From Blastocatellia bacterium (GTDB lineage: Bacteria > Acidobacteriota > Blastocatellia > HR10 > J050), in NCBI GenBank assembly GCA_026985075.1, contig JALSQX010000080.1, positions 32,501 through 96,500 on the forward strand: DNA of 64,000 nt, read 5' to 3'. Numbering within the stretch: position 1 is the first letter of the stretch; every line of letters starts with the position of its first letter. The translations under genes were made by a program, and so were the position numbers. Positions 7,349 through 28,628 of the stretch are shown here, piece by piece. The notes under the pieces were generated by a model that made no database searches, had not been told where the DNA came from, and saw only the letters and a program-made list of their open reading frames with translations.

Positions 7349-8896
7349 TTATCGGATCAGCGCCAGCCAATGAGCGAAGAGCTTCTTGACGAACGGGGTC
7401 AACCGCGTCCGGTTGTAAGCATCAGCCGCCTTTCGAATGGCTTCCGCCTGCGTCGGATAGGGATGAATGACCGAGGAGAGACTTCCCAAACCGATGCCTT
7501 TGACCATGGCCAGCGTAAGTTCATTGATCATCTCGCCAGCATGGCGAGCAACGATGATGGCGCCGAGGATCTTGTCGGTTCCCTTCTTCACCGTGATCTT
7601 GACGAATCCTTCTTCCTCCCCATCAGTTATGGCTCGATCCACTTCGCTCATGGGCATCATGAACGTGTCCACGGACAGCCCTCGTTGCCGAGCATCTTTC
7701 TCCGATAATCCCACATGAGCGATTTCCGGATCCGTATAGGTGCACCAGGGGATGGTCAAAGCGCTCAGTTTCTTCCGGCCCATGAAGAGGGCATTTTGAA
7801 TGACGATTCGCGCTGTGGCGTCAGCCGTATGGGTGAATTTGTAAGGGAGGCAAATATCGCCAGCGGCGTAGATGCGCGGGTTCGTGGTTTGAAGGCGATC
7901 ATTGACCAGGACACCTTTTCGTCGATCATACTTCACTCCCACCGCCTCCAGATTGAGTCCTTCGACGTTCGGCGCGCGACCAACGCCGATGAGAATCTCA
8001 TCGACTACGATGCGATCATGCTTGCCCTCGGTTTCCAGGTGCAATTCTTTCCCTCCACCAGTCAACGTGACCCGAGTGAGCCTGGTACGCAATCGAACAT
8101 CTACTCCCTCTCGCCGGAACACCTCGGTGAGCATATGTGCCGCATCGGGATCCTCGCGAATGAGCAGTTGGGAGGACATCTCGACCAAGGTGACTTCCGA
8201 ACCGAGTCGACAGAACGTCTGGGCCATCTCACAGCCGATGGGCCCACCGCCGATGACGGCCAACCGCCGAGGCCGCTCGGTTAATGAAAAGACGGTCTCA
8301 TTGGTCAAGTATCCCGCCTCGGCCAACCCAGGGATTTGTGGTTCGACAGCGCGCGCGCCGGTGGCAATGACGGCTTTCTTAAACCGCAGCCTTTTGCCGG
8401 CGACGTCAATGGTGTCTGCCCCGGAGAATCGACCCTCTCCTAAGAACACATCCACGCCCAGCTCCTGGAAGCGCGCCGCCGAATCATGATGACTGATGCG
8501 CGCGCGGATCCGCCGCATCCGCTCCATGACGGCCGAAAAGTCGACCTCCACTCCCCAGGAGACCCGCACTCCGAACTCATGAGCGCGGCGAACGTCGGCG
8601 ACGGCGCGCGACGAACGGATGATCGATTTTGAGGGAACGCAGCCCACGTTGAGGCAATCGCCTCCCATCAAATTCTTTTCAATGAGAGCGACCTTCGCCC
8701 CCAGGCTGGCCGCGGCAGCGGCCGTCACCAATCCGGCCGTCCCGGCGCCAATGACGACCAGGTTGTATCGCTTGGCGGGTTCTGGATTCACCCAATGGGG
8801 TGGATGTACGTTGGCCACGAGGCGGACATTATGTTCGTCCCGAGGTCGCACGTCGGGAATGTCACTGCTGACCGTTAGGGATTCCGTCTTCGTCAT
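7349..8896 (-). CDS. MerA-like pyridine nucleotide-disulfide oxidoreductase
   Basis: An FAD/NAD(P)H flavoenzyme of the mercuric reductase/dihydrolipoamide dehydrogenase superfamily. It has an FAD-binding GAGTAGL near residue 50, the redox disulfide in GGDCLNVGCVPSKS (Cys81, Cys86), NAD-binding GGGPIGCE, and a C-terminal dimerisation domain with TDPEIAHVG. It lacks the N-terminal HMA domain and the C-terminal vicinal cysteine pair of true mercuric reductase, so mercury reduction should not be assumed. The start ATG lies right after the TVP38 stop (TGACATG) with GGAGG upstream, so the pair is coupled, a common pairing in bacteria. It is the last gene of the putative arsenosugar operon. Confidence 0.9.
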   Translation of the reverse strand: MTKTESLTVSSDIPDVRPRDEHNVRLVANVHPPHWVNPEPAKRYNLVVIGAGTAGLVTAAAAASLGAKVALIEKNLMGGDCLNVGCVPSKSIIRSSRAVADVRRAHEFGVRVSWGVEVDFSAVMERMRRIRARISHHDSAARFQELGVDVFLGEGRFSGADTIDVAGKRLRFKKAVIATGARAVEPQIPGLAEAGYLTNETVFSLTERPRRLAVIGGGPIGCEMAQTFCRLGSEVTLVEMSSQLLIREDPDAAHMLTEVFRREGVDVRLRTRLTRVTLTGGGKELHLETEGKHDRIVVDEILIGVGRAPNVEGLNLEAVGVKYDRRKGVLVNDRLQTTNPRIYAAGDICLPYKFTHTADATARIVIQNALFMGRKKLSALTIPWCTYTDPEIAHVGLSEKDARQRGLSVDTFMMPMSEVDRAITDGEEEGFVKITVKKGTDKILGAIIVARHAGEMINELTLAMVKGIGLGSLSSVIHPYPTQAEAIRKAADAYNRTRLTPFVKKLFAHWLALIR

Positions 8897-26350: not shown

Positions 26351-27178
26351 CTAGTGAGCTTGTTTGAGGAGTTGCCTTTCCCTCAAGTCATCTTTGGTCC
26401 ACCGGTAGGGTAACTCCACGATGGTACCGGGCTCGGTGACGCGCTCGGCCGCCCTCAAACAATCGACCAAGATAGCTCGCTGCACCTGACGATCATGGAG
26501 ATCGCCAAACGTATACCCGAACGGATGGCGAATATAGAGGGCGCGCGAGGGCTTGACTAACTCGGTGATGCTGCGCACCAATGTGAGGGAGATGGTCGTC
26601 AACCCCGCCTCGTCAAAGACTCGTTGGATCAGTCCCACGGACTGATTGCATACCGGTCAGGCGGGGCTGAGAATGACCAGATCCACCCCATCCGCCTTGA
26701 GGTTCTCGGCCACTTCGGGGGCCGTTTGGCGGATCAACGGTTCCGTCTCCGCCACATAGCCCATGAAGGAAAAATGCCGAGGAGCCGCCGATCCGATGAT
26801 GCCCTCCGTGACCAGCTCGCGGAGCCGATCCAGAGGGAACACGGCATTCTTATCCTCACTCACCCGCTTGATGTCATACCCCACATGGGATAACCGCAAT
26901 TCGTCTAAACTCGCATCGCCCGGAATCTGACGATAGGAGGGATCTCCGATGGGGCTTCTCAAATTAAATGGTGGATCTGCCGCCGCATGGACACCGGCAG
27001 TGGTGACCAGAGCGATGCGGCACTCGGAGAGGGGTTTTCGTAATGGATTCACTCGAGTAGGATGATCGAAGCGAACCCAGTCAAACTGAGGATAGGCTTT
27101 TCGGCGAACGAACTGCTTCTCCAATTCCACGAAACTAGCATCTAATTCCGCTTCTCGATCCACGACTCTCTCATTCAT
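26351..27178 (-). CDS. GrdB-like selenoprotein with in-frame UGA (Sec174)
   Basis: A 275-residue protein related to selenoprotein B of the glycine/sarcosine/betaine/proline reductase family. The N-terminal part has CRIALVTTAGVH, RSPIGDPSYR, LRLSHVGYD and ISEDKNAVFPLDRL-like (VSEDKNAVFPLDRL) motifs. The TGA at 26659-26657 lies in DLVILSPA-U-PVCNQSVGLIQRVFDEAG, giving a UxxC redox motif exactly where the family carries Sec, and the frame stays open to 26351. A bacterial SECIS-type hairpin follows the UGA. The start at 27178 has GAGGAG upstream. An AhpD-like gene precedes it on the same strand. Substrate and redox partner are unknown. Confidence 0.88.
26628..26659 (-). promoter_or_regulatory. 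Bacterial SECIS element with UGA codon
   Basis: The UGA at 26659-26657 is followed by 10 bases and then a perfect 8-bp stem, ATCAGTCC (26646-26639) with GGACTGAT (26635-26628), closed by a 3-base GTG loop. The UGA-to-loop distance is 18 bases and the loop begins with G. Both fit the published bacterial SECIS rules (apical loop 16-37 bases after UGA, G in the first two loop positions). The hairpin lies within the coding sequence, as required for SelB-directed decoding. Confidence 0.8.
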
Positions 27179-27236
27179 GATGACGTGCTCCTCACGAAGA
27201 AGTGGGGGCTCAGCCCCCATTTTGAGACTTCTATAT

Positions 27237-27623
27237 TTACTTCAAATCAGACTCCACGCGCAAACCATCGAGGAACTTATTGATACCGCAGAACAGATCG
27301 ACAACCGCCAGGCCCTCCACAAGTTCTTTCTCAGAGACGCCCATGCGTCTCAACTGCGCCGTATGGGCATTTATGCAATACTCACAATTATTGACCGTGG
27401 AAACGGCCAGGGCGAGGAATTCCTTCGTCTTGGGGTCTAATTTACCCGGTCCCATGATTACCTTGAAACGATCCCAGGTCGTCTGGAGATAAGCTGGATG
27501 GACGGCCATAGCCTTGAACAGGTTGGAAACAAACGGAAGTCCGAATGTGCGTTTGATATCCTCATAGATCTCTTTCACTGTACCCGTGACGTGTTCTTCT
27601 GAAAGCAGTTTCACTCTCGCCAT
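27237..27623 (-). CDS. AhpD-like carboxymuconolactone decarboxylase family protein
   Basis: A 128-residue all-helical protein of the AhpD/CMD family with the redox motif CEYCINAH (Cys80, Cys83) typical of alkylhydroperoxidase-like members, preceded by LDPKTKEFLALAVSTVNN. It probably acts as a thiol peroxidase or disulfide shuttle in the cytoplasm. The start at 27623 has GAGGAGG just upstream; an upstream in-frame start would add an unlikely leader. It lies 58 bases before the GrdB-like selenoprotein and is likely its redox partner. A CRP-like gene is divergent. Confidence 0.9.
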   Translation of the reverse strand: MARVKLLSEEHVTGTVKEIYEDIKRTFGLPFVSNLFKAMAVHPAYLQTTWDRFKVIMGPGKLDPKTKEFLALAVSTVNNCEYCINAHTAQLRRMGVSEKELVEGLAVVDLFCGINKFLDGLRVESDLK

Positions 27624-27932: not shown

Positions 27933-28628
27933 ATGAAGAGCTCATGGTATGTTCGGCAAATCAACATGCCTGGCTGCTTGGGAGACGATGAGGATCTCCG
28001 GGCGATCTCTGACATCACGCCGAAACGAGAGTATGAGGCCAGCGAGATCATCTATTATGGAGGTGATCACGCCGACGCACTGTACATCATTAAGCGAGGC
28101 CAAGTCACGCTGTCGGCTTTCTCATTGGAAGGAAAGGAAAAGATTCTGGAGATCCTCCACGAGGGAGATATCTTCGGTGAGATGTTCCTCGGCGAGGAGG
28201 AGCGCGGTCATCGGCAGGCCAAGGCGGTCACCAAAGTGACTCTTTGCATCATGACCCGGCGGGCCTTTCTGGAACTCGGTCGGCGAAAGCCACAAGCGGT
28301 CATGGATTTCATGAGCGTGTTCATGAAGCGACTGCGTGACTTGCAGAAAGAGGTGGAAGATTTTGCCTTCACTACGGCTCGAGAGCGGTTCATCAAGCTT
28401 CTGGGTAAATTGTGCGACGAATACGAGACGACTAAAGAGCGCGATCCGCACACCTGCGTGGTGCGGTTCTCTCAAGATGAATTAGCCCATTTGTTGGGCC
28501 TCACCCGTGAGCGGGTCAATGCCTTGGTGCAGGAATTCAAACGCGAGGGACTCGTTCAATCTCACTACGGATACGTCACCGTCAATCGGAATCAGCTTCA
28601 GGAGTTCCTCGGCCGCTTTCAGTATTAA
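27933..28628 (+). CDS. CRP/FNR-family transcription regulator
   Basis: A 231-residue regulator with a cNMP-like barrel (ALYIIKRGQVTLSAFSLEGKEKIL, GDIFGEMFLGEEERG), a dimerisation helix and a winged HTH (FSQDELAHLLGLTRERVNALV). Cysteines are not arranged as an FNR iron-sulfur cluster. AGGAGG precedes the ATG. It is divergent from the AhpD-selenoprotein pair across a 309-base region, so it probably controls them, perhaps in response to a redox signal, although no clear palindromic operator was found between them. Confidence 0.92.
   Translation: MKSSWYVRQINMPGCLGDDEDLRAISDITPKREYEASEIIYYGGDHADALYIIKRGQVTLSAFSLEGKEKILEILHEGDIFGEMFLGEEERGHRQAKAVTKVTLCIMTRRAFLELGRRKPQAVMDFMSVFMKRLRDLQKEVEDFAFTTARERFIKLLGKLCDEYETTKERDPHTCVVRFSQDELAHLLGLTRERVNALVQEFKREGLVQSHYGYVTVNRNQLQEFLGRFQY

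Follow-up and report, generated by a model that had tools for sequence, protein, structure and literature searches.

A UGA-interrupted, stand-alone relative of PrdB and GrdB in an acidobacterium: comparative evidence for selenocysteine and a possible link to peroxidases

Selenocysteine (Sec, U) is the rare 21st amino acid, and the selenoproteins PrdB and GrdB, which carry it in a UxxC motif, have long been known. Marine surveys reported 42 (PMC1088965) and later 235 (PMC2398784) Sec-containing sequences that were filed as 'proline reductase PrdB', and a survey of 2006 counted only three selenoprotein families for the phylum of the bacterium considered here (PMC1794560). A review of selenoprotein operons lists pairs of a peroxiredoxin (Prx) with a SELENOW-like protein and of a Prx-like with an AhpD-like protein, the pair of a peroxiredoxin with a GrdB-like protein being absent from it (PMC13188914). 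Sec-containing 'PrdB'-type proteins are thus already known, and the gene described below, from a Blastocatellia bacterium (Acidobacteriota), adds another member. What may be new is the occurrence of such a PrdB-like protein without PrdA, together with a sister operon linked to peroxiredoxin; neither was found in the literature searched, which does not prove their absence from it. The gene lies in a stretch of 64,000 nucleotides (the window) within a draft genome of 105 contigs that is estimated to be 98.7% complete, and the nearest relatives of this genome are metagenome-assembled. The gene very probably encodes a genuine selenoprotein whose motif is U-x-x-C (probability about 0.95), because TGA and Cys exchange at one position among homologues, a SECIS hairpin co-varies, the codons past the TGA are under purifying selection, and the same genome holds the full Sec machinery.

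A single in-frame UGA and the means to decode it

The minus-strand frame of 275 codons runs from an ATG at 27178, with a Shine-Dalgarno sequence (GAGGAG) 9 nt 5' of it, to a TAG at 26351-26353, and its sole interruption is one TGA in the context SPA-U-PVCNQS (Table 1), much as the first-pass annotation had read it. Under translation table 11 the same DNA yields two ORFs, one of 187 aa (26657-27220), whose start is taken at an upstream ATG with no visible Shine-Dalgarno sequence, and one of 95 aa (26351-26638), which is the division that had been foreseen for a simple gene caller. The comparison set out here confirms UGA-encoded selenocysteine at a place where standard gene calling splits the gene into two broken ones.

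Table 1. Features of the locus, in window coordinates
Feature	Coordinates	Strand	Basis
Selenoprotein gene, 275 aa, stand-alone PrdB/GrdB-C-terminal-like (PF07355), Sec174/Cys177 (UxxC)	26351..27178	-	TGA=U translation and profile matches
In-frame UGA, predicted to be decoded as selenocysteine (residue 174)	26657..26659	-	TGA retained in relatives of 91% and 73% identity; U/C column in homologues
Bacterial SECIS hairpin, ATCAGTCC-GTG-GGACTGAT	26628..26646	-	Geometry, covariation, synonymous-codon null, non-Sec control
AhpD/carboxymuconolactone-decarboxylase family protein, 128 aa, NNCEYCINAH CxxC	27237..27623	-	PF02627 and TIGR00778 matches
CRP/FNR-family regulator, oriented divergently from the AhpD-selenoprotein pair	27933..28628	+	Also beside the pair in L025 and L026

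The TGA is retained, in the context SPA/APA-U-PVCNQS, in two independent assemblies, a J050 acidobacterial genome (L025, 91% identity) and a more distant one (L026, 73%). Between the window gene and L025 the post-TGA codons show a dN of 0.022 and a dS of 0.47 (dN/dS about 0.05): the codons downstream of the TGA are under purifying selection and strongly constrained. A survey of the phylum found a relative in 102 of 396 genomes, most with one TGA, and in 53 aligned homologues the Sec codon falls in a single column that holds U or C and rarely S, D or E; the TGA-free homologues have Cys there in several cases and Ser, Asp or Glu less often. Sec or Cys is replaced by Glu, Asp or Ser in the relatives of L055, L058, L071, L072, L080 and L081, and such replacements imply that a simple selenol or thiol role would not suit every member. 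A cation-diffusion-facilitator-like gene, named by eye, adjoins the relatives of L071 (Glu), L072 (Asp), L074 (Cys) and L082 (Cys), which hints at a changed function. Another relative (L066:2463-3122, genome G219) has two in-frame TGAs nine bases apart, CPA-U-PI-U-HQS, and one hairpin whose loop lies 17 nt past the second TGA; this UxxU pair is possibly a diselenide site.

The Sec pathway that the first-pass annotation took to be implied was found complete in the same genome, with a tRNA-Sec (72.8 bits, TCA anticodon), SelB (371 bits), SelA (577 bits) and SelD (369 bits), the SelD gene itself containing an in-frame TGA. SelB was present in all the Sec-form genomes searched and in most of the non-Sec ones (44 of 48 over the cut-off), and the four genomes without it carry TGA-free homologues; as a discriminator of the Sec forms, its presence can be called only consistent. 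Wholesale reassignment of UGA was rejected, because UGA is the ordinary stop of 16 of the 25 window genes.

The hairpin downstream of the UGA

Downstream of the TGA, 10 nt are followed by ATCAGTCC (26646-26639), the loop GTG (26638-26636) and GGACTGAT (26635-26628), which form a perfect stem of 8 bp, and the hairpin segment has a minimum free energy (MFE) of -11.0 kcal/mol. The bSECIS model allows a loop of 3-9 nt, a stem of 4-16 bp, a G among the first two nucleotides of the loop, a spacing of 16-37 nt and an MFE <= -7.5 (PMC13188914), and the hairpin lies within all of these limits, so that the perfect stem, the GTG loop and the published geometry claimed for it all stand. Its stem had been placed 18 bases past the UGA; that distance is true of the loop, whereas the stem begins after 10 nt.

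The hairpin alone was rejected as proof of a SECIS element, since 53 of the 2574 TGA triplets within the window (about 2%) have an equally good hairpin score and the wider fold of 53 nt is unexceptional (z -0.82). A SECIS match by itself is weak evidence, and what goes beyond chance here is comparative. Among 20 distinct sequences 95% of the pair cells of the stem do pair. The covariation score is 0.377; shuffling yields 0.166 +/- 0.023, and none of the slid controls exceeds 0.126. Synonymous recoding with the amino acids kept gave a mean of 5.5 of 8 pairs, compared with 7.7 observed, and the observed pairing exceeded the null mean in every one of the 29 genes, which are related and hence not independent trials. 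In 12 non-Sec homologues only 3-7 of the 8 pairs form, the stem being largely lost. These comparisons show that selection acts on the hairpin at the RNA level.

The contrary reading, that the UGA is a real stop, a sequencing error or part of a decaying pseudogene and that the hairpin arose by chance, draws on the frequency of such hairpins in the window and on the unexceptional regional fold. It is scarcely credible in the face of a TGA that recurs in independent assemblies, of Cys in the same column of homologues, of the co-varying stem, of purifying selection on the codons beyond the TGA and of a complete Sec machinery. The first-pass annotation had itself named three hazards, namely homologues that terminate at the UGA, a sequencing error at 26657-26659, and a genome without Sec machinery, and none of them was encountered; pseudogene and sequencing error were rejected on the retention of the TGA in relatives and the purifying selection beyond it. 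With a UGA that aligns with Cys or Sec, bSECIS geometry, and tRNA-Sec, SelA, SelB and SelD in one genome, its principal claim of a genuine selenoprotein is upheld, and selenocysteine insertion is as well established as sequence evidence allows.

Neighbours, a sister subfamily and a proposed role

The AhpD-like gene lies 58 nt upstream of the selenoprotein gene on the same strand, and its product is likely to be a co-transcribed redox partner, while the divergent CRP/FNR-family protein is possibly a local regulator. In L025 the regulator, an intact AhpD-like gene and the selenoprotein gene are all kept; in L026 the regulator is kept and the AhpD-like gene is truncated, and the other loci have neither. 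Being confined to the two closest relatives, the conservation of the AhpD-like neighbour is a weak clue. The neighbours of other relatives include a purine permease (L091, L093, L101) and an MttB-like methyltransferase, named by eye (L031, L034, L085), so that partner and substrate may differ between groups. In part this comparison draws on loci where the gene itself showed a UPxC match; no GrdE-like pyruvoyl gene was found near any of the relatives examined.

Some further observations concern the surroundings of these genes. In L026 (1552-3981) the AhpD-like gene ends after about 47 residues and continues into an unrelated frame of 809 aa, which represents a rearrangement or a misassembly between the AhpD-like and selenoprotein genes, and about 3.4 kb downstream of the relative (8192-8566) there is a redoxin-like frame with the active site UPYCRKQ, a candidate selenoprotein. 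In the window, an isolated 16S rRNA fragment on the minus strand (1811-2157) matches model positions 48-357 only, and no other copy of this part of the 16S rRNA was found in the genome; the fragment is an rRNA remnant or an assembly join.

The strongest clue to the role of the protein is the peroxiredoxin linkage of a sister subfamily. These paralogues, with the motif TGG-U-P(x)VC-HR, also occur in the genome studied here, where one (L064:6228-6881, minus strand, contig C44) is preceded by a peroxiredoxin gene (L064:7012-7467, minus strand). In 10 of 11 loci, this genome included, a peroxiredoxin gene immediately precedes the paralogue; the other nine of these 10 are L075, L076, L078, L079, L107, L108, L110, L111 and L115. 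Nine of the 10 peroxiredoxins have TPVU, which makes them candidate selenoproteins too; in L076, Cys takes the place of Sec in peroxiredoxin and paralogue alike.

A mechanism may be proposed as follows. On reaching the UGA at codon 174, the ribosome would be served by SelB with Sec-tRNA bound to the hairpin just downstream, and selenocysteine would be inserted, giving a product of 275 residues with a Sec174-Pro-Val-Cys177 active site, as the comparison of homologues suggests. Related to PrdB and to the C-terminal portion of GrdB, the product would stand alone, acting without a pyruvoyl partner. In an AlphaFold model (pLDDT 90.2, pTM 0.90) Sec174 lies between a strand (167-171) and a helix (175-190), and a UxxC pair placed where a helix begins is characteristic of thiol/selenol redox sites. 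From this predicted position at the helix N-terminus, after the central strand, Sec174 as a selenolate could attack an oxidised or electrophilic substrate; Cys177 would resolve the selenenyl-sulfide, which a thioredoxin-type donor would then reduce. In the alignment (275-residue numbering) D79, R83, D109 and P115 are invariant, and N111, E189, P211, R212, G221, G225 and Q233 nearly so. No chain in the PDB was similar by sequence, and none by fold (no E <= 0.001).

A thiol/selenol redox role is favoured because of the AhpD-like neighbour and because of the paralogues that follow peroxiredoxin genes. We tentatively prefer, at somewhat less than even odds, peroxide/thiol redox chemistry with the AhpD-like protein over amino-acid fermentation; against this redox role it counts that the AhpD neighbour is common only to the two closest relatives and that the neighbours of the others differ. 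For stand-alone PrdB-like proteins as a group, the peroxiredoxin context lends a peroxidase-linked role a plausibility that is about the same or slightly lower.

Comparison with PrdB, GrdB and related selenoproteins

The first-pass annotation called the protein GrdB-like, which is right in so far as it belongs to the PF07355 (GRDB) superfamily (52.8 bits; gathering score 22), the match covering only profile positions 216-345 of 347. It is, however, nearer to PrdB (TIGR04483, 175.5 bits, E 1e-51) than to GrdB (54 bits), the GrdB-type NCBIfam models (TIGR01917/01918) giving 53-60 bits, below their cut-offs. True membership of either family was rejected, the equivalog cut-offs having been missed and PrdA being absent. 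Since the protein fails the PrdB cut-off of 300 bits and its genome lacks PrdA (TIGR04480, cut-off 700 bits; best matches 32.6 and 24 bits), it would by the tests made be neither a D-proline nor a glycine reductase, although its chemistry may be like that of PrdB and GrdB.

As a true D-proline reductase PrdB, the selenol would attack a proline that PrdA holds through its pyruvoyl group, opening the ring to 5-aminovalerate. By far the best NCBIfam match, a similar length, the UxxC motif and the label used in the surveys (PMC1088965, PMC2398784) speak for this function, which is nevertheless very improbable given the score far under the cut-off, the near-complete genome in which the two weak TIGR04480 matches are GrdE/G-like genes, and the relatives examined, which have no GrdE-like pyruvoyl gene nearby. 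Those two genes belong to a glycine/betaine/sarcosine-reductase-type operon of this acidobacterium (L063:4341-12159; contig C53:28340-36158), which comprises component C beta, a thioredoxin-like ORF, GrdA (Sec), two GrdB (Sec) and the two GrdE/G-like subunits, which also resemble fluoroacetate reductase FarE. That the window protein is an extra substrate subunit of this complex, passing glycine-, betaine- or sarcosine-like substrates to GrdA, would fit the presence of the complex and the MttB-like methyltransferase near some relatives. It is unlikely, if less so than the proline reductase function, as the alignment of the protein is confined to the final third of the GRDB profile, the gene lies on a different contig, and the GrdB of this genome have U-x-x-C-x-x-C (UGTCTRC, UATCSRC) where the window protein has UPVCNQS and no third Cys. 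The redox role that we prefer has a narrower form, a selenol reductase that recycles a peroxidase, namely the peroxiredoxin in the paralogues and the AhpD-like protein here. The recurrent peroxiredoxin operon, including its all-Cys version, and the AhpD-like CxxC protein encoded upstream, both in the window and in L025, make it a tentative possibility, short of an even chance; against it, the subfamily of the window protein has a partner unlike that of the paralogues, and only close relatives conserve it.

Compared with PrdB, then, the window protein has a similar length, the UxxC motif and the same kind of SECIS-directed insertion, and can be aligned over residues 57-276 of a 289-residue reading, and it differs in its sub-threshold score and in the missing PrdA partner. 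With GrdB it shares homology to the C-terminal part and Sec and Cys in UxxC, and it differs in having no N-terminal part, no full-length GrdB domain, no third Cys of UxxCxxC and no adjoining grd genes. The TGG-U-P(x)VC-HR paralogues are homologous, stand-alone proteins of the same genome with Sec in the same column, yet they are only 37% identical, mostly have UxxxC spacing, sit in the peroxiredoxin operon and have no clear version of the hairpin of the window gene. It is a tentative possibility, again short of an even chance, that the free-standing PrdB/GrdB-like selenoproteins form a separate selenol redox class servicing peroxidases (an AhpD-like protein in the window, a Sec-peroxiredoxin for the sister subfamily) and are not amino-acid reductases at all; if so, the survey label 'proline reductase' would be wrong for this group. 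'PrdB' proteins do occur without a proline reductase partner, and the recurring operon of two selenoproteins, a peroxiredoxin and a GrdB-like protein, makes the function testable. The marine 'PrdB' selenoproteins, common in seawater, in Sec and Cys forms and with UxxC (PMC1088965, PMC2398784), probably belong, as likened by description, to the same broad group, from which the window protein stands apart in being acidobacterial and in having an AhpD-like neighbour.
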